Shown here: positions 74-9,304 of the stretch, in pieces
How the letters are laid out: every line of letters begins with the position of its first letter
Numbering within the stretch: the first letter of the stretch is position 1
The notes under the pieces: model-generated
Seen by the model: only the letters and a program-made list of their open reading frames with translations
What the model was told of the DNA's origin: nothing
The model's database searches: none
NCBI RefSeq assembly: GCF_000963945.1
Contig: NZ_BAMW01000050.1
Span: 1-64,000, forward strand
Origin: Acetobacter indonesiensis
GTDB lineage: Bacteria > Pseudomonadota > Alphaproteobacteria > Acetobacterales > Acetobacteraceae
Direction: 5' to 3'
Length of the DNA: 64,000 bases
Program-made: the position numbers and the translations under genes

Positions 74-2806
74 ATGGCTGAAGCTAAAATGAACAAAACG
101 GATGCGCTCCGGTATTTTTGGGGTAAAGCACACCCTGAAAACCAGATGCAGGCTTCAGATTCTTCTACTCTCATGCATCCGCTTATCGCTCATGTGTTAG
201 ATGTCGCTGCTGTGGCTATCTTGTTGCCCGGTAGTGACCGACTGGGGCTTGATAATCGACAGTTGGGGATGCTGATAGCGCTCCATGACATTGGCAAGCT
301 TATGCCATCATTTCAGAAAAAAGTACCGGCATGCTGGCCAAAGCAAGGCTTAGGTTCTTATTCTGAAAATTATATAGAATCACGTCATGATGCTGATGGC
401 TTTCTGTTGCTTAGTTATTTTTGTGCAGAGGCTCTTGATTCTTTGTTCAAAAATTCAGATGACGCGCAACTGGACTGGTTAGAGAGTGAAAAAGACCAGT
501 TATGGCGTGCGGTAGCGGGGCATCATGGAAAGCCTGCTGCCTGCGATTGGGACAAAAGAAAACAGGACCCCAGCTTCAAATTTATAGCGCCATATGCTCA
601 ACAGTTTATTCAAATTCTCCTGAAAGTCTTTAATCCGCCTGCCCTTCCATTATTTCACTCTCCCGATTGTTTGCGCCGATTAGAATGGCAATTAGCGGGG
701 TTAACCAATCAGGCTGACTGGATAGGCTCCCAAAAAACATGGTTTCCATATGTGACGCCGGATGCCGTGATGGATGCGACAGCTTATTTCTGGAATCATG
801 CTCTGCCACATGCACAGAAGGCAATTTTACAAGCAGGGCTTGGCCCTGTTGAGGTTGCTTCTTTCCAAGGAATAGAACGACTTTTCTCCCATATCCAAAA
901 GCCATCACCGGTACAGGACGTTATGCAATCTGTGGCCTTACCTGATGGTCCGGCATTAGTGATTATCGAGGACATGACGGGGTCTGGCAAAACAGAAGCC
1001 GCGTTGGTTACGGCCCACCGATTGATGGCATCCGGGCGCGCTTCTGGATTGTTCGTTGCGCTTCCAACTATGGCCACTGCACATGCCATGTATGATCGGT
1101 TGGTTGAGGCTTATCGGAATCTTTTCCTCCCTTCTTCGCGTCCATCGCTTGCTCTAGCGCATAGCCGTGCTTTGTTGGACGAGCGGTTTGTGTCTGTTCT
1201 GGCCCCAGATGACGCTCTGGATGTGACATTTATCCCAGACGATAGAGCCAGCGCCGCAGAAATTTGTTGTTCGGCGTGGTTAGGTCGTGACTCCCGAAGG
1301 GCTCTTTTGGCTCAAGTAGGTGTGGGGACCATTGATCAAGCTCTTATGGCTGTCCTGCCTGTCAAATTTGCTACAATGCGTCAGGCAGGGCTAGCGGGGA
1401 AAGTTCTTCTCGTTGACGAATGCCACGCATATGATTCTTATATGCAAGAAGAAATGGCAGCACTTTTACGCTTTCATGCGGCTATGGGTGGTTCGGCCAT
1501 TTTATTGTCTGCTACATTAACCGGGGCTGTGCGTCAAAAGTTGACAACGGCTTTTCAGGATGGGTTACGCATACAAGAAACTGCGACTTTATCAAGCGCG
1601 GCATACCCTTTAGTGACACTCGTTGGGGCAGAAAATGTTCTGGAATTACCGTGCAATGCGCGGGACGAACTAAAACGAACAGTTGCCGTTCACCTGATCT
1701 CAGATGAAGCCTCTGTCGTTCACATCATAAAGGATGCTGCTGCTAAAAATGCTGCGGTCGCATGGGTTCGTAACAGCGTAGATGACGTTATTGCCTCTGC
1801 TCAGGCTCTGACGACAGACAGTATTAAACCCATTGTGTTTCACGCGCGCTTTGCCATGATTGATCGCCTGGCAATAGAGCGTGAAGTGCTCAGGCGGTTT
1901 GGTGCCAAGAGCAGTGAGGCCGACAGAGCGGCGGTCTTGATTGCAAGTCCTGTTTTACAGGAATCGTTAGATATAGATTTCGATGTTTTATGTACAGATA
2001 TTGCTCCAATGGACCTGGTTATTCAGCGTGCTGGCCGTTTGCAACGGCATAAAAGAAATAAGCGCCCGATAGAAAGTGAAGAACTTTATATTTTATCACC
2101 AGTTACTGAAAAAAATGTAGATAAAAACTGGATTAGTCATTTTTTGCCAAAAACTGCCGGTGTTTATAGAAATGCTGCGTTATTGTGGCGTACGGCAGAT
2201 GTTTTGAAACACGAAAAAGAAATAAAAAGCCCCGAAAACATAAGATATTTAATAGAGCAGGCTGCCGATCTGTCTGATGTGCCTGAAGCATTAATGGGGG
2301 ATAGAAACAGCGCCGAAGGAAGAGGTCGTGCGGAAAAAGGTTTGGCGATGCAGAATGTTCTGAATTATGAGGCCGGCTATGCGCCAGACGTAGCTTTGTG
2401 GGAGTCTGATATTCGTACTCCTACCCGGTTGGAAGATGAACCTCATGTCACGGTGCGGCTTGCTATTATAGAAGGACAGACTGTTCGTCCTTGGGCTGCG
2501 TTCATAGACAGTTCCTTGGAGACCCAACACCAGCAGAAACGAGCTTGGGCGCTATCAGAAGTGTCTGTACGTCGTAAACAACTGGCTCACTGTCTCATAC
2601 CGCCGGAAGCTAAAGAGGCGGCTTCAAGGGCGCGTAGTGTTTGGTCATGGTGGGAACGTGAAGCAGAGGATCAGTTTCTGTTGCTGCTTTTGACCCCAAA
2701 TGAATCGGGTTGGCAGGGTTCTGGACGTAATGGGAAAGGACAAGATGTTGTGATTCAATATGATCAGTTATATGGTTTGCAAATCTTCCCAGCGATATCG
2801 GGATGA
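74..2806 (+). CDS. cas3: Cas3 HD nuclease-helicase, type I-E
   Basis: Cas3 is recruited by target-bound Cascade, nicks the displaced strand and degrades DNA processively with ATP. Seen here: an N-terminal HD nuclease domain with His35, His40 and the His71-Asp72 pair (HDIGK), then an SF2 helicase core with a Walker A (DMTGSGKT, residues 300-307), a DECH box (448-451) and an SATL motif III. The 910 aa length fits type I-E Cas3, which carries HD and helicase in one chain. The ATG at 74 is used; ATG 89 is a possible alternative. The stop codon TGA lies inside a sequence matching the last 11 nt of the CRISPR repeat (2800-2810), so the final codons double as part of a repeat-like element. About 170 nt separate it from cas8e, unlike the tight spacing of the other cas genes, so cas3 is probably transcribed from its own promoter. 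Confidence 0.97.
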   Translation: MAEAKMNKTDALRYFWGKAHPENQMQASDSSTLMHPLIAHVLDVAAVAILLPGSDRLGLDNRQLGMLIALHDIGKLMPSFQKKVPACWPKQGLGSYSENYIESRHDADGFLLLSYFCAEALDSLFKNSDDAQLDWLESEKDQLWRAVAGHHGKPAACDWDKRKQDPSFKFIAPYAQQFIQILLKVFNPPALPLFHSPDCLRRLEWQLAGLTNQADWIGSQKTWFPYVTPDAVMDATAYFWNHALPHAQKAILQAGLGPVEVASFQGIERLFSHIQKPSPVQDVMQSVALPDGPALVIIEDMTGSGKTEAALVTAHRLMASGRASGLFVALPTMATAHAMYDRLVEAYRNLFLPSSRPSLALAHSRALLDERFVSVLAPDDALDVTFIPDDRASAAEICCSAWLGRDSRRALLAQVGVGTIDQALMAVLPVKFATMRQAGLAGKVLLVDECHAYDSYMQEEMAALLRFHAAMGGSAILLSATLTGAVRQKLTTAFQDGLRIQETATLSSAAYPLVTLVGAENVLELPCNARDELKRTVAVHLISDEASVVHIIKDAAAKNAAVAWVRNSVDDVIASAQALTTDSIKPIVFHARFAMIDRLAIEREVLRRFGAKSSEADRAAVLIASPVLQESLDIDFDVLCTDIAPMDLVIQRAGRLQRHKRNKRPIESEELYILSPVTEKNVDKNWISHFLPKTAGVYRNAALLWRTADVLKHEKEIKSPENIRYLIEQAADLSDVPEALMGDRNSAEGRGRAEKGLAMQNVLNYEAGYAPDVALWESDIRTPTRLEDEPHVTVRLAIIEGQTVRPWAAFIDSSLETQHQQKRAWALSEVSVRRKQLAHCLIPPEAKEAASRARSVWSWWEREAEDQFLLLLLTPNESGWQGSGRNGKGQDVVIQYDQLYGLQIFPAISG

Positions 2807-2810
2807 ACCG
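2783..2810 (+). repeat. Degenerate CRISPR repeat (psi-R1) at the cas3 3' end
   Basis: The right end GGGATGAACCG is identical to positions 19-29 of the array repeat at 9093, and TTCCC at 2786-2790 corresponds to repeat positions 4-8 if one base is deleted between. The stem is weak (TCCC/GGGA) but the 5' handle is perfect. It overlaps the last codons and stop of cas3. Confidence 0.7.
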
Positions 2811-2843
2811 TCTTAAGTAGTCTGTGTGGCGACTGGACTGTTT

Positions 2844-2872
2844 CTGTTCCCTGCTTCGGCAGGGATTTGAAT
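2844..2872 (+). repeat. Degenerate CRISPR repeat (psi-R2) with covarying stem
   Basis: Positions 2845-2851 (TGTTCCC) and 2862-2866 (GGGAT) match the array repeat in register. The stem CCCTGC-TTCG-GCAGGG has the same geometry as CCCCGC-ACAC-GCGGGG, with one compensatory pair change. The terminal 8-nt handle is not conserved, as expected for a unit needed only as a Cas6e cleavage site. It could alternatively be read as a terminator hairpin, but no T-run follows. Confidence 0.75.
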
Positions 2873-2884
2873 ATCCCAATGAAT

Positions 2885-2920
2885 AAGTCTTATGTAGTAT
2901 ATGTTATCAGAAAAATGATT
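2885..2920 (+). promoter_or_regulatory. Putative Cascade target site in the cas8e operon promoter
   Basis: AAG at 2885-2887 is the consensus type I-E PAM. The following bases match the pseudo-spacer at 2811 at positions 1-5, 7-11, 13 and 15-17. The mismatches among the first 17 are at 6, 12 and 14. Positions 6 and 12 are flipped out in type I-E Cascade and do not contribute to pairing. -10-like hexamers (TAGTAT at 2895, TATGTT at 2900) lie inside the site, with TTGAAT (2867-2872) upstream, so bound Cascade would be expected to block initiation for cas8e and the genes behind it. Partial pairing would favour repression over cleavage. The exact promoter is not certain. Confidence 0.7.
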
Positions 2921-2979
2921 GCGTAACTCAGAGTGGTAAGTCATCGTATCTTTGGTTGTTTGCTCTAGGTGGCCTTTTC

Positions 2980-4620
2980 ATGACTGATGATAAGCCCTTC
3001 AATCTACTTTTAGACCCATGGTTGCCTGTTTCACGGCGGTCGGGTGAAGCAAGCGTTATTCGCCCAGCCCAGATTGTAGAAGATATAAAAGACAATCCTA
3101 TTGTCGGGTTTATGTGGCCCAGAGCTGATTTCCGAGTGGCGTCTTTTGAATTTTTGATTGGTCTATTGGCGACAGCCTGTCCCCCTGAAACCCATAGAGC
3201 GTGGGTGCAGAATTGGTTAAAGCCTCCGTCAGTGGAACAACTGGACGAAGCCTTTGCGAAAATTGCCGATGCTTTTTGGTTAGATGGCCTTCAGGCGCGT
3301 TTCTTGCAGGATTATGATACCCTGCAAAGTGACTCGGAATATGCAGAGCGTCTTCTGATTGATGCCCCAGGCGAAAGCACGGTAAAGCGAAATGCTGATC
3401 TGTTCGTGCATCGTGGCCAGGTTGAGCGTATGGCGCGTTCAACTGCGGCAATTGCTCTTTTTACCCTTCAATCTTGGGCTCCCAGCGGTGGGGCCGGGAA
3501 CATGACAGGTTTGCGTGGCGGTGGCCCGCTTACCACGTTGGTTCTGCCTGAAGAAAGAGGAAGCCTGTGGCGTATTGTCTGGGCGAATGTGCCGAATGGA
3601 AGTGCAATAAAAAACGCTGATAAAACAAAAGTTTTTCCATGGCTGGCCCCGACTGTTGCATCAGGAAAAGACGGAACAGATGTGCGCATTTCTGAAAATG
3701 CACATCCATTACAGTGTTGGTGGGGTATGCCACGCCGAATCAGGCTGGTGTTCGAAAAAAATAATGATCAGGTCTGTGATCTTACCGGGCAGTCAGATAC
3801 GGTTTTGGTAACAGGCTGGCAGCAAAGGCCGTATGGTCCGAAATATGCTGGCTGGATAGGAATGCCGTATGGCGCAGGCACAGTTCATCCTCTGACCCCG
3901 CGTTATCAACAGAAGACTGGGGCAGAATGGTTGGCAATTCATCCTCAGCCCGGTGGCATCGGTTACAGACATTGGGCTGGTATTGTTGTTGAAAGCGCCG
4001 ATGGCAACAAATTGCCAGCCAGTTGTGTCGTAACGTGGCGAAACGAAAGGGCCAGAGACGTTCGTCTTTCTCAGGCTCCCCGTTTGCTTGCTGCCGGGTA
4101 TGACATGGATAATATGAAAGCGCGCGGTTTTATTGAAAGCGAGATGCCGTTGTTTGATGCTCAAGACATTGAACGACAAAAAAATATCGACATTCTGGCC
4201 CGAGACTGTGTGGGGGCCGCGACGCAGATTGCAGATTTACTGCGTAGCTCTGTGCGGGAAGCCCTGTTTGGGAAAGCAACAGTATCAGTTGACGTGACGC
4301 TTCTTGCTAATCTTCGTGAACGGTTTTGGGAACAAACGGAGTCAGATTTTTTTGCCATCTTGCACGAAGCGGTTACGACAAGTGATGATGTGGCTTTGAA
4401 AACAAAATGGTTTCGCATTCTTGCCCACGCTGCTCTGCGTGAATTTGATCTGACTGTTACATTAGAGCCTGAAACAACCATGCAAGATGCAAAACGGTTT
4501 TCGGCTGCCCGTAAGCGTTTGAGTATTGCTGTCGCAGGGAAAGGGACAGAGGGCAAAAAAATCATGAATGGTCTGGGACTTCCTGTTTTAACTGATAAAA
4601 AGACGGAAAAAATTGTCTGA
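2980..4620 (+). CDS. cas8e: Cas8e (Cse1/CasA), Cascade large subunit
   Basis: This is the large subunit of the type I-E effector, which reads the PAM and docks Cas3. The 546 aa protein begins MTDDKPFNLLLDPWLPV, the typical Cse1 N-terminus. The ATG at 2980 is preferred over the upstream TTG (2956) because AGGTGG (2967-2972) lies at a normal distance. The gene is first in a compact operon: its stop TGA overlaps the ATG of cse2 (TGATG). The 5' leader carries the candidate Cascade target site and a three-codon ATG-ATT-GCG-TAA reading frame. Identity is assigned from the N-terminal pattern, length and fixed type I-E gene order. Confidence 0.95.
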   Translation: MTDDKPFNLLLDPWLPVSRRSGEASVIRPAQIVEDIKDNPIVGFMWPRADFRVASFEFLIGLLATACPPETHRAWVQNWLKPPSVEQLDEAFAKIADAFWLDGLQARFLQDYDTLQSDSEYAERLLIDAPGESTVKRNADLFVHRGQVERMARSTAAIALFTLQSWAPSGGAGNMTGLRGGGPLTTLVLPEERGSLWRIVWANVPNGSAIKNADKTKVFPWLAPTVASGKDGTDVRISENAHPLQCWWGMPRRIRLVFEKNNDQVCDLTGQSDTVLVTGWQQRPYGPKYAGWIGMPYGAGTVHPLTPRYQQKTGAEWLAIHPQPGGIGYRHWAGIVVESADGNKLPASCVVTWRNERARDVRLSQAPRLLAAGYDMDNMKARGFIESEMPLFDAQDIERQKNIDILARDCVGAATQIADLLRSSVREALFGKATVSVDVTLLANLRERFWEQTESDFFAILHEAVTTSDDVALKTKWFRILAHAALREFDLTVTLEPETTMQDAKRFSAARKRLSIAVAGKGTEGKKIMNGLGLPVLTDKKTEKIV

Positions 4621-5174
4621 TGCTTACCAGAAAGGAAACGTCCCGTGTGGCGGTGACATGGTGGCAGGGATTGCAACCTGATCCTGACAAAAATCAGCAG
4701 GGTGATCGTGCTGCATTGGCGCGCCTTAGGCGGTGTTCAACGATAACAGAGCTGCTGTTTGAGCGTGAAACGCAGCTATTTTTACATAAATGCGGTGCGA
4801 CCAGTGGTTCTGCATTTTCGCGGGCGGCATTGGTTGCGGGTGTTCTGGCGTATGTCAGGGCAAACCGGGTTGGTGTTCCTGTTGCACGTCAAATTGGCCC
4901 TGTAGAGGCTGATGATGAAAAAACAGCCCTATGCAAGCCTCTACGGTTCAGAAAGCTGCTGGATACAGAAAGCTATGATGACTGTCTTCGTGCTTTTCGG
5001 CGGCTTGTCATGTTGGCAGGTGGTGCAGTGAATGTTGCGGATATGGCGTTTGCACTTATGGCATGGCCGCGTGAAGAATCTCAGGATGAACTTGCAGCAG
5101 ACAGAGTAAGGCGTGACTGGGTTTATCGTTACTGGAATACTGCCACTTTGGAAAAACCATCTGATAATCAGTAA
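4620..5174 (+). CDS. casB: Cse2 (CasB, Cas11e), Cascade small subunit
   Basis: Cse2 is the small helical subunit, present in two copies in type I-E Cascade, that stabilises the R-loop. The protein has 184 aa and is rich in Arg and Lys, with the N-terminal pattern WWQGLQPDPDKNQQGDRAALARLRR typical of Cse2 in its spacing of W, RA-LRR. Its ATG overlaps the cas8e stop by one base. It is followed after 18 nt by cas7e with an AAAAGGA ribosome site. Assignment rests on the conserved N-terminal pattern, size and position between cas8e and cas7e. Confidence 0.93.
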   Translation: MLTRKETSRVAVTWWQGLQPDPDKNQQGDRAALARLRRCSTITELLFERETQLFLHKCGATSGSAFSRAALVAGVLAYVRANRVGVPVARQIGPVEADDEKTALCKPLRFRKLLDTESYDDCLRAFRRLVMLAGGAVNVADMAFALMAWPREESQDELAADRVRRDWVYRYWNTATLEKPSDNQ

Positions 5175-5192
5175 TATAAAAGGATTATTATC

Positions 5193-6251
5193 ATGAGCCG
5201 TTTTTTGCAGCTTCACCTTTTGACATTCTACCCGCCATCAAACGTGAATCGTGATGATGCTGGCAACCCCAAGACAGCGACAGTTGGCGGGGTGACGCGG
5301 TTACGTATTTCTTCGCAGGCGTTGAAACGTGCGTGGCGTACATCGGATATTTTTTCATCTGCTTTGGCCGGTCATGAGGGAAAACGCACCCAGCGTCTGG
5401 GGGAGGAAATTCTGAAGCATCTTTTACAAAAAGGTGTGGATGAAAAAAAGGCAACATCCATAGCGCGTGAGATTGCGGGTGTGTATGGAAAGGTAAAGGC
5501 GGAAAAAGACCAGAACCCGACACGTACGGAACAGCTTGTTTTTATTTCTCCATCCGAACACGCTGCCGCTATTGCTATGGCAGACCGGCTTGCAGCAGGG
5601 GAAAAAGTGGATGTGAAGAAAGAGCAGGAGAGCTTGCTGCACCGGTCAGACTCAGCGGCGGATATTGCGTTGTTCGGGCGGATGCTGGCGGGGGCGCCAG
5701 CGTTTAATCGGGAAGCGGCCGTGCAGGTAGCCCACGCTATCACAACCCATCGGGTGACGGTGGAAGACGATTATTATACCGCTATTGATGACCTGAAACA
5801 GGATGAAGAAGACGCAGGCGCAGGTTTTCTGGGGGAAGCCGGATTTGGGTCTGGCGTGTTTTATCTTTATCTGTGCGTTAATCGTGATCTGTTAAAGAAA
5901 AACCTTGGCGATAAAAGCGAAACTAGCGTGGCCGAAGCCGCACTAGGGGCTTTGGTTGAAGCAGCAATGACCGTTTCTCCGTCAGGCAAGCAGAATAGTT
6001 ATGCTGCCCTGGCGCGTGCCGGGTATGTCTTGGCAGAAAAAGGAAATGCGCAGCCCCGTACACTGGCGGGTGCTTTTGCACGGCCTATTGCGGGTCAGGA
6101 TTTAATGCAGCAATCTATTGCAGATTTGAAAAACTTCCGCGCTGAACTAACACGCGTTTACGGTGAAGGGGCCGAGGATGTTTGTGAAATGGCGCTAGGG
6201 GATGAAAAAAGCGCGACACTGGCAGATATTGTCGCCTTTTGTCGGGCCTGA
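5193..6251 (+). CDS. cas7e: Cas7e (Cse4/CasC), Cascade backbone
   Basis: Cas7e forms the six-copy filament that holds the spacer part of the crRNA. Its thumbs interrupt pairing every sixth base, which matters for the self-target described upstream. The 352 aa protein starts MSRFLQLHLLTFYPPSNVNRD and continues with VTRLRISSQALKRAWR, both hallmarks of the family. An AAAAGGA Shine-Dalgarno sequence precedes the ATG. It sits between cse2 and cas5e, with 5 nt between its stop and the cas5e start. Confidence 0.97.
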   Translation: MSRFLQLHLLTFYPPSNVNRDDAGNPKTATVGGVTRLRISSQALKRAWRTSDIFSSALAGHEGKRTQRLGEEILKHLLQKGVDEKKATSIAREIAGVYGKVKAEKDQNPTRTEQLVFISPSEHAAAIAMADRLAAGEKVDVKKEQESLLHRSDSAADIALFGRMLAGAPAFNREAAVQVAHAITTHRVTVEDDYYTAIDDLKQDEEDAGAGFLGEAGFGSGVFYLYLCVNRDLLKKNLGDKSETSVAEAALGALVEAAMTVSPSGKQNSYAALARAGYVLAEKGNAQPRTLAGAFARPIAGQDLMQQSIADLKNFRAELTRVYGEGAEDVCEMALGDEKSATLADIVAFCRA

Positions 6252-6256
6252 ACCCC

Positions 6257-7039
6257 ATGGGGCAATTCCTAACCTTTGCCATGGTAGCCCCTATGGCATC
6301 GTTCGGGACGCTTGCTGTTGGTGAGCGCCGGGATGGTAGTGATAGGCCCGCCCGCTCTGCCGTGCTGGGGTTGGTGGGGGCGTGTCTTGGTCTGACACGG
6401 GATGATGAAGACGCCCAGAAAGATCTGGCGCATCAGTATGGCTTGGCTGTTTTATGCCACGCGTCCGGTCGATTGCTGACTGATTACCATACAACGCAAA
6501 CAGCACCCGCGCGCCGCAACTGGACCCCGGCAACACGCGCACAGGAACTGGCGGACGCACCGGGAGAGATTGCAACCATCCTGTCCCGCAGGGATTACCG
6601 CATGGGAAGCTGGCATCTGGGTGTGCTGTGGGTGCGGGCTGATATGCCCCGCTGGTCATTGGACAGCATAAAAATGGCTATGCAACAGCCGGTTTTTTCA
6701 CCGTCATTAGGGCGTAAATCTTGCCCACCGGGTTTGCCATTGGCTCCAGATATCCAGAGTGCAGACAACGCCATTACTGCCGTTCTAGACCGCTATAAAC
6801 ACGGACCGGAGCAAAGTGTGCAGACCCGTTTTGGCTTGTTCAAAAATCACCTGACCGGCCCAGACACACAAACGGATGTAGTGGTGGTTATGGATACAGC
6901 AGATGTTGCGGCGCACGGGGGTAACTACCCGGTCGTGCGTCATGAAATGCGCCGTGATCAACCGCTTTCACGCACACGCTGGCAATTTGGCTTGCGGGAA
7001 GAAGCGATGCTTCTTTGCAAAAAGGATATCGCGATATGA
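6257..7039 (+). CDS. cas5e: Cas5e (CasD), crRNA 5'-handle cap of Cascade
   Basis: Cas5e binds the 8-nt 5' handle of the crRNA and caps the Cas7 filament. The 260 aa protein begins MGQFLTFAMVAPMASFG and contains the family's RDGSDRPARSAVLGLVGACLG stretch (W/R-T-P-S-AV-GLL type). ATG 6257 is chosen; an upstream TTG at 6239 would overlap the cas7e stop and adds residues not expected in the family. The stop overlaps the cas6e start (ATGA), indicating translational coupling. The handle conserved in the candidate regulatory RNA (ATGAACCG) is the part this subunit would contact. Confidence 0.95.
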   Translation: MGQFLTFAMVAPMASFGTLAVGERRDGSDRPARSAVLGLVGACLGLTRDDEDAQKDLAHQYGLAVLCHASGRLLTDYHTTQTAPARRNWTPATRAQELADAPGEIATILSRRDYRMGSWHLGVLWVRADMPRWSLDSIKMAMQQPVFSPSLGRKSCPPGLPLAPDIQSADNAITAVLDRYKHGPEQSVQTRFGLFKNHLTGPDTQTDVVVVMDTADVAAHGGNYPVVRHEMRRDQPLSRTRWQFGLREEAMLLCKKDIAI

Positions 7040-7725
7040 GTGCCGGGTTTCTCTCTCGTATCTCCTTACGGCAAGATGCGTCTGTTCAGGCTATAGCCCG
7101 GCTTCTTGTGCCGCAGGGGGAGAGCAACCAGCACAAAGCAGCACATCACCTGTTATGGGTTTTGTTTGGTGATACGCCAGACCGGAAAAGGGATTTTCTG
7201 TGGCGTCAGACTGACCCTGGCTGTTTTTTGGTTTTATCAGCCCGAGAACCCGTTGATACGCATGGGTTGTTCGATATTGAAAGTCAGGTTTTTGCGCCAC
7301 GCCTGAAAGATGGCAGCCGATTGGGGTTCATGCTGCGTGCCAATGCAACACTTGACCGGAAGTGTGAAGGGCGTGCCCGCAGCAAACGTCATGATATTGT
7401 TATGGATGCGCTCTATCACATTCCCAAAGAGCAGCGAGCCCATGCGCGTGATGGTGTAGTGCAGCAAGCCATTACATCCTGGCTTCTGCGGCAGGGGCAG
7501 CGTACCGGGTTTGCGTTGCAGCCTGATGCTCTTTCCGTGCAGGGGTGTGATGTGCTGCGTGTGGCGCGTGAAGCGGGGCAAGGCAAGGCAACATTTGGCG
7601 TGGTCAATGTTACTGGTGCGCTGTGTGTTACAGACCCGGCGCTGTTTGTTCCTGCGTTGATGCATGGTTTTGGCCGGGCCAAGGCGTTTGGGTGCGGGCT
7701 TATGCTCATTCGTCGCGCTTTGTAA
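7036..7725 (+). CDS. cas6e: Cas6e (CasE), CRISPR RNA endoribonuclease
   Basis: Cas6e cuts the precursor RNA at the base of the repeat stem and stays on the 3' hairpin in Cascade. The 229 aa form starting at ATG 7036 (ATGA overlap with cas5e) is preferred over ATG 7015, which lies inside cas5e. Family features seen: FLSRISLRQDAS at the N-terminus, HHLLWVLFGD with a candidate catalytic His, and a Gly-rich C-terminal FVPALMHGFGRAKAFGCGLMLIRR. The stem substrate here is CCCCGC/GCGGGG. The second repeat-like unit near 2849 preserves an equivalent stem and so should also be a substrate. Confidence 0.95.
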   Translation: MSAGFLSRISLRQDASVQAIARLLVPQGESNQHKAAHHLLWVLFGDTPDRKRDFLWRQTDPGCFLVLSAREPVDTHGLFDIESQVFAPRLKDGSRLGFMLRANATLDRKCEGRARSKRHDIVMDALYHIPKEQRAHARDGVVQQAITSWLLRQGQRTGFALQPDALSVQGCDVLRVAREAGQGKATFGVVNVTGALCVTDPALFVPALMHGFGRAKAFGCGLMLIRRAL

Positions 7726-7738
7726 AAGGATAAGATGG

Positions 7739-9020
<1,282 letters not shown>

Positions 9021-9092: not shown

Positions 9093-9304
9093 GTGTTCCC
9101 CGCACACGCGGGGATGAACCGATAAGCGGAAGCCAGCCAAAAATGGCAAAAGCGTGTTCCCCGCACACGCGGGGATGAACCGGCCATGTCAGACGCTTTC
9201 CGATCCGTGATGCGGTGTTCCCCGCACACGCGGGGATGAACCGACCGGCCAGAAATGGAGGGGCTGTGCGATTTTGTGTTCCCCGCATATGCGGGGAAAT
9301 AAAT
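9093..9304 (+). CRISPR. Type I-E CRISPR array, 4 repeats and 3 spacers
   Basis: Three identical 29-nt repeats lie at 9093-9121, 9154-9182 and 9215-9243. Each begins GTGTTCCCCGC, has a CCCCGC/GCGGGG stem with an ACAC loop and ends ATGAACCG. The fourth (9276-9304) is degenerate: the loop is ATAT and the last eight bases are changed, marking the leader-distal end. The three spacers (9122-9153, 9183-9214, 9244-9275) are each exactly 32 nt. An array this short beside a full cas operon suggests little recent acquisition or loss of spacers. I could not search the spacers for targets. Confidence 0.98.

Follow-up and report, generated by a model that had tools for sequence, protein, structure and literature searches.

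What does a two-repeat mini-CRISPR between cas3 and cas8e do in a type I-E cas locus? The question arises at the beginning of contig C132 of Acetobacter indonesiensis (genome size 3.41 Mb), of which a stretch of 64,000 nucleotides, here called the window, was analysed. The cas set is complete for type I-E (cas3, cas8e, cse2, cas7e, cas5e, cas6e, cas1e and cas2e by NCBIfam), and all features described here lie on the plus strand. The cas3 gene (74..2806, 910 aa) matches both cas3_core and cas3_HD of NCBIfam above cut-off. The cas8e gene (cse1/casA, 2980..4620; TIGR02547 above cut-off) is the first gene of the Cascade operon and the presumed regulated gene. It is followed by cse2, cas7e, cas5e, cas6e, cas1e and cas2e at 4620..9020, assigned by NCBIfam above cut-off, and by a CRISPR array at 9093..9304 with three spacers, three intact repeats of sequence GTGTTCCCCGCACACGCGGGGATGAACCG and a degenerate last repeat. 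Two more clusters of this repeat family are found beyond the window on the same contig and in the same orientation, at about 64801-65134 and 76861-77130.

The mini-CRISPR occupies 2782-2872 and is composed of psiR1, psiS and psiR2. The degenerate repeats psiR1 (2782..2810) and psiR2 (2844..2872) each share 16/29 positions with the array repeat. The stem of psiR1 is weak (−6.0 kcal/mol vs −14.4 kcal/mol for the canonical repeat), and the 8-nt 5′ handle ATGAACCG is fully kept in it at 2803-2810. A strong stem-loop, CCCTGC-TTCG-GCAGGG, is formed by psiR2 (−12.3 kcal/mol). The TGA stop of cas3 (2804-2806) falls within the psiR1 handle, as the cas3 stop does in 14 of the 25 loci of an eye-picked set that includes the window. 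Between the repeats lies the pseudo-spacer psiS (2811..2843, 33 nt), which is the guide.

Comparison of psiS TCTTAAGTAGTCTGTGT (from 2811) with the target TCTTATGTAGTATATGT shows 14 identical bases of 17, with mismatches at positions 6, 12 and 14. The preliminary description had reported such a match directly after an AAG PAM, with 6 and 12 as the only mismatches within positions 1-13, and both statements hold: the PAM is at 2885..2887, the protospacer starts at 2888 and the next mismatch is at 14. By analogy with the array spacers the protospacer is 32 nt long (2888..2919), and its distance to cas8e is 92 nt. The orientation fits type I-E, with the guide in sense and AAG 5′ of the protospacer. 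When positions that are multiples of six are set aside, 14 of the 15 remaining positions among 1-18 pair; handle and PAM are intact, and the flipped-out positions are the ones that have diverged. When the 163-nt region was dinucleotide-shuffled 20,000 times and both strands were searched, 11 sites with at least 14/17 matches turned up, none of them next to AAG. The pattern AAGTCTTANGTAGTNTG, allowed up to two mismatches, finds three places in the whole genome: the target (one mismatch), psiS (two) and one site without AAG (two). Since the backwards control pattern finds five, it is the target alone that stands out.

Related loci carry pairs of their own. We gathered 104 regions upstream of cas8e, window included, from a family search with matches in 59 of 397 genomes, a scan of genome contigs (34 loci; L072 left out), plasmid records (5 of the 40 that match) and additional genomes; the genome collection holds one genome per species, and the set is a selection of the matching genomes. 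Identity over the last 250 nt reduced them to 87 non-redundant regions. A pair was called where a handle-like octamer precedes the guide, at least 12 of the 15 non-6n positions match and the PAM is AAG or ATG. Such pairs are present in 25 of the 87 cas3-cas8e regions, window included, compared with 0, 1, 0, 1 and 4 of 87 for five control PAM pairs; four of the 25 (L018, L048, L112 and L124) are near-duplicates of others. Admitting AAC, AAT or AAA adds five loci, L037, L133 and also L012, L043 and L126, whose pairs look false. L016 scores 11, under the cut-off.

A separate set of 25 loci, window included, was picked by eye from handle matches, with L031 and L133 added as their pair had already been seen. 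Left out were the near-duplicates L018 and L048, and L082, L083 and L090, which have poor handle-like matches in the gap and no guide-target pair. With no PAM rule imposed and positions 6, 12 and 18 unscored, the best target is flanked by AAG in 19 loci, by ATG in three, and by AAT, AGG and AAA in one each; L066, the AGG locus, lacks a convincing pair. Own guides score 9 to 15, and at least 13/15 in 20 of the 25 loci, whereas guides swapped between loci reach 13/15 in 2 of 600 combinations, one of which joins the close relatives L095 and L133. Guides vary from species to species. The first four bases, TCTT, are common to the window, L010, L011, L016, L020 and L040, and the guides diverge afterwards. 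The sole opposite-strand target among pairs of at least 13/15 belongs to Gluconacetobacter takamatsuzukensis (L020; −394 from cas8e, PAM ATG). Nguyenibacter vanlangensis (L066) has eight repeat handles in a row, mostly 61 nt apart, from −711 to −286 relative to cas8e. This row begins at the cas3 stop and keeps the register that psiR1 has in other loci; it is possibly a source or an expansion of the mini-CRISPR.

The mismatches in these pairs are periodic. Over 24 loci with 18 positions scored, position 6 is mismatched in 15, position 12 in 19 and position 18 in 16, compared with 45 of 360 at the other positions of 1-17. This tally excludes L066 and includes the weak L037 (AAT) and L133 (AAA), and the best match of L016 in it is a different site (TGC). 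A cleaner set of 21 pairs, with L016 taken at its AAG site and L020 (opposite strand), L037, L066 and L133 omitted, gives 14/21, 18/21 and 15/21, and 34/315 at the other positions. As the loci are related, these counts are not independent events. Positions 19-24 are mismatched in 14-18 of the 24 loci each; pairing fades past base 17 across the natural pairs. The nearby Acetobacter loci L039, L073, L101 and L105 have no guide-target pair, so control by a guide is dispensable. In the cas3-cas8e gap of L039 and L105, AAGTCTTA is followed by TTGACT, which may be what is left of a target or a coincidence in an A+T-rich gap.

We consider it probable, at roughly three chances in four, that the element is a CreR-type autoregulatory guide by which Cascade represses its own cas operon. 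The anatomy, the match, the PAM, the rarity of the site in the genome, the relatives' own pairs and the periodic mismatches are the observations behind this reading, and from them we infer transcription, processing, promoter position, repression and derepression. A short transcript across 2782-2872 would be cut by Cas6e at both degenerate repeats, and the product, a crRNA-like RNA with the handle ATGAACCG, would be loaded into Cascade. The loaded complex would bind the AAG-flanked site at 2885-2919, with pairing confined to about 17 bases and positions 6 and 12 unpaired. Cascade flips out the crRNA at every sixth position (PMC5904413), so Cascade-mediated pairing predicts freedom at 6 and 12; judged from the sequence, the PAM and the mismatches at these positions argue for binding by Cascade. 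About 17 paired bases would allow stable binding and would be too short for a locked R-loop that recruits Cas3, so that the host DNA would stay uncut. Cascade of E. coli binds sites with mismatches at 19-32 like perfect ones, and such sites give neither interference nor priming (PMC5904413), and R-loop locking and Cas3 recruitment need the PAM-distal end to be reached (PMC9718816). By analogy, natural pairs that end at about 17 bases would belong to a regime of binding without cutting. The bound complex would block the promoter of cas8e and the other Cascade genes.

Several points count against the CreR-type reading. One is the weak stem of psiR1, and the dispensability seen in the nearby Acetobacter loci is another. 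E. coli Cascade at off-target sites is reported to leave nearby expression unaffected (PMC5904413). A further point is the promoter. The target had been described as overlapping −10-like sequences, and this is not borne out: no promoter appears at the target when 2700-3060 is scanned with the consensus. The sole match of the scan, a weak promoter-like site inside cas3 (2737..2764, 9/12 matches), could transcribe the guide RNA; we assign it with low confidence, as the scan found one where shuffles give 0.5. Near the target, TTGAAT-18-TATGTA (2867-2896) matches the consensus at 7/12 positions only. A TTGAC −35-like element starts at protospacer positions 19-33 in 7 of 22 loci of relatives against a background expectation of 0.05, in a range that was picked after data inspection. 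Cascade in those loci would lie over the −35. No TTGAC stands in this range in the window. Feedback of Cascade on its own operon, as it had been proposed, is the best-supported interpretation, backed by the relatives' own pairs, by the PAM and by mismatches at positions 6 and 12, and appears likely without the −10 overlap.

The conditions of relaxation need to be reworded. Repression was expected to relax when Cascade or crRNA is scarce. Scarce Cascade or scarce pseudo-crRNA would likewise relax it in principle. CreR repression, as presented in a review, eases under competition for Cascade from abundant array crRNAs, or when Cascade is disabled by anti-CRISPRs (PMC12737573). Repression in the window would correspondingly ease once array crRNAs occupy Cascade or once Cascade is disabled.

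The kind of element is already known. CreR, a cas-regulating crRNA-like RNA, was reportedly described by Liu et al. in Cell Host Microbe in 2023. Reviews present it as a crRNA-like RNA, in one of them a "mini-CRISPR", that partly matches the cas operon promoter and is generally toxin-free, with type I-E among the reported types (PMC12737573, PMC12948488, PMC13131331); autorepression is given for types I-B, I-E and V-A (PMC13131331). The earlier finding is sound and its interpretation largely right, and what it describes is CreR as a review reports it for type I-E (PMC13131331). The window shares with CreR the ectopic repeats and a crRNA-like gene with intact handle at the cas locus, a guide partly matching (14/17) a PAM-flanked site upstream of the cas operon, and the lack of a recognisable toxin gene, a toxin of another kind being conceivable. 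Unlike CreR as the reviews present it, this slot holds toxin-like modules in close relatives.

In Streptococcus pyogenes the guide for Cas9 autorepression is a long form of tracrRNA and not a mini-CRISPR. There too the effector represses its own operon and anti-CRISPRs relieve the repression, similar to our reading, in a system that is type II, unlike the one here (PMC13131331). CreTA is the other relevant system. In type I-F of Acinetobacter it sits between cas3 and the next cas gene, as here, and 17/20 psiS bases pair (PMC8501985, PMC9458426, PMC10097628). The window resembles it in the two divergent degenerate repeats and in a guide that partly matches a PAM-flanked target. It differs in that no recognisable creT follows the target, which lies only 92 nt from cas8e. 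None of the open-access literature matches listed concerns CreTA or CreR of Acetobacteraceae type I-E, and the words CreTA, CreR and ectopic are absent from two of these papers, which deal with CRISPR in Bombella and Acetobacter. We did not find, in the literature searched, a family-wide record of pairs with unpaired sixth positions, nor a slot common to a CreR-type guide and a CreT-like family.

Many relatives have, 3′ of the target, a stem-loop, a strong Shine-Dalgarno sequence, a small hairpin that contains the start codon, and a mini-ORF, as recognised by eye (L010, L028 and L040 were among the loci folded). A mechanical scan finds CreT-like ORFs in 10 of the 24 pair-bearing loci, against 0.49 expected from shuffles, and none in the other 14. 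Together with the ORF of L016, which was picked by eye and is missed by the scan, eleven ORFs can be compared (L010, L016, L017, L020, L023, L025, L027, L028, L040, L078 and L081). Their codons 7-8 are AGA, ATA or TTA at 19 of 22 positions, compared with 0 of 55 for codons 2-6. The combination is AGA-AGA in L010, L020, L023, L027 and L028, ATA-ATA in L040, AGA-TTA in L016 and L078, AGA-TCA in L081, TTA-TCG in L017 and TCA-AGA in L025. AGA is found once among 5313 cas8e codons of ten relatives (0/4767 in nine of them, 1/546 in L040). These rare codons resemble those of the haloarchaeal CreT, which sequesters tRNA by two consecutive AUA codons (PMC8501985). The mini-ORFs are by sequence CreT-like candidates for a small toxic RNA, which the same spot seems to regulate in many relatives. 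The codon tally excludes L112 (a duplicate of L040), L011, L035 and L037, which look decayed by eye, L063, L071, L094, L095 and L133, which have a long gap and no recognised ORF, and five short-gap loci. After the target, at about 70-150 nt, an inverted repeat is visible by eye in the Gluconobacter loci L063 and L071. An 82-codon ORF with a Shine-Dalgarno-like AAGGA comes next in L063, possibly a protein partner in place of the RNA toxin.

The five short-gap loci are the window, Roseomonas marmotae (L030), Siccirubricoccus phaeus (L031), L059 and Acidiphilium cryptum (L074). Their targets lie 63-191 nt from the cas8e match, compared with at least 228 nt elsewhere. In the window the mechanical scan finds no mini-ORF with a Shine-Dalgarno start between target and cas8e. 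A creT relic was considered there on the basis of a shared 7-mer, GCGTAAC, and rejected, as local alignment with the post-target regions of six relatives is not significant; the best score, with L016, is reached in 47 of 500 shuffles. A creT relic is supported by similarity in Novacetimonas hansenii (L011), where the score is reached in 0 of 300 shuffles against each of L010, L016 and L017, in 11 against L040 and in 132 against L020. This locus keeps a 14/15 pair alongside its decayed toxin.

These data also bear on the alternatives. The element might be a relic, an old CreTA that has lost its toxin and decays without function. The weak psiR1, the decayed creT of N. hansenii and the position of the window among CreTA-type loci on a tree without support values would fit this. 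However, the non-6n positions still pair at 14 of 15 and handle and PAM remain perfect while the flipped-out positions have diverged, and N. hansenii has likewise kept its pairing, which makes a relic unlikely. Alternatively, 2905-2979 could encode a small RNA toxin that escaped detection; the element would then be a creA antitoxin and would repress this toxin in place of cas8e. The same architecture does precede a CreT-like mini-ORF in relatives, and inspection shows tiny ORFs without a strong Shine-Dalgarno in the gap. Against it, the gap has no start with a Shine-Dalgarno, the fold of its RNA is equalled or bettered by 181 of 200 shuffles, it has no significant similarity to the corresponding regions of the six relatives, and the spacing to cas8e is short, so that we regard such a toxin as improbable. 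An ordinary tandem duplication or repeated transcription-factor site without any link to CRISPR would account for psiS and target being imperfect direct repeats 77 bp apart, but it is highly implausible, as it would account for neither the AAG PAM nor the handle of the repeat, nor for relatives whose guides differ in sequence and likewise mismatch at 6 and 12.

With the CreR-type guide as the preferred reading, the history of the slot can be considered. On a midpoint-rooted FastTree of partial Cas3 and Cas8e, without support values, the window, L030, L074 and the neighbours L031 and L059 sit among toxin-bearing loci in about four places. The presence of the mini-ORF in ten relatives but not in the window and the four other short-gap loci suggests switching between addiction module and autoregulator. 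The simplest reading is that the toxin was lost and the guide retained; the opposite direction is the alternative. A wider model, for which we hold the odds to be slightly short of even, is that the Acetobacteraceae cas3-cas8e slot switches repeatedly between CreTA and CreR by loss or gain of the toxin while the guide-target pair coevolves. The toxin would be reprogrammed among rare codons at codons 7-8 (AGA-AGA, ATA-ATA, AGA-TTA), and the guides would be adjusted to a pairing length, about 17 bases, at which Cascade binds and Cas3 is not called. Some two dozen natural pairs would read out what Cascade needs for binding without cutting, namely an AAG PAM, about 17 paired bases and free positions 6 and 12. 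Since toxin-like, decayed and toxin-free versions occupy the same place in related loci, the origin of CRISPR autoregulation becomes testable in this family.
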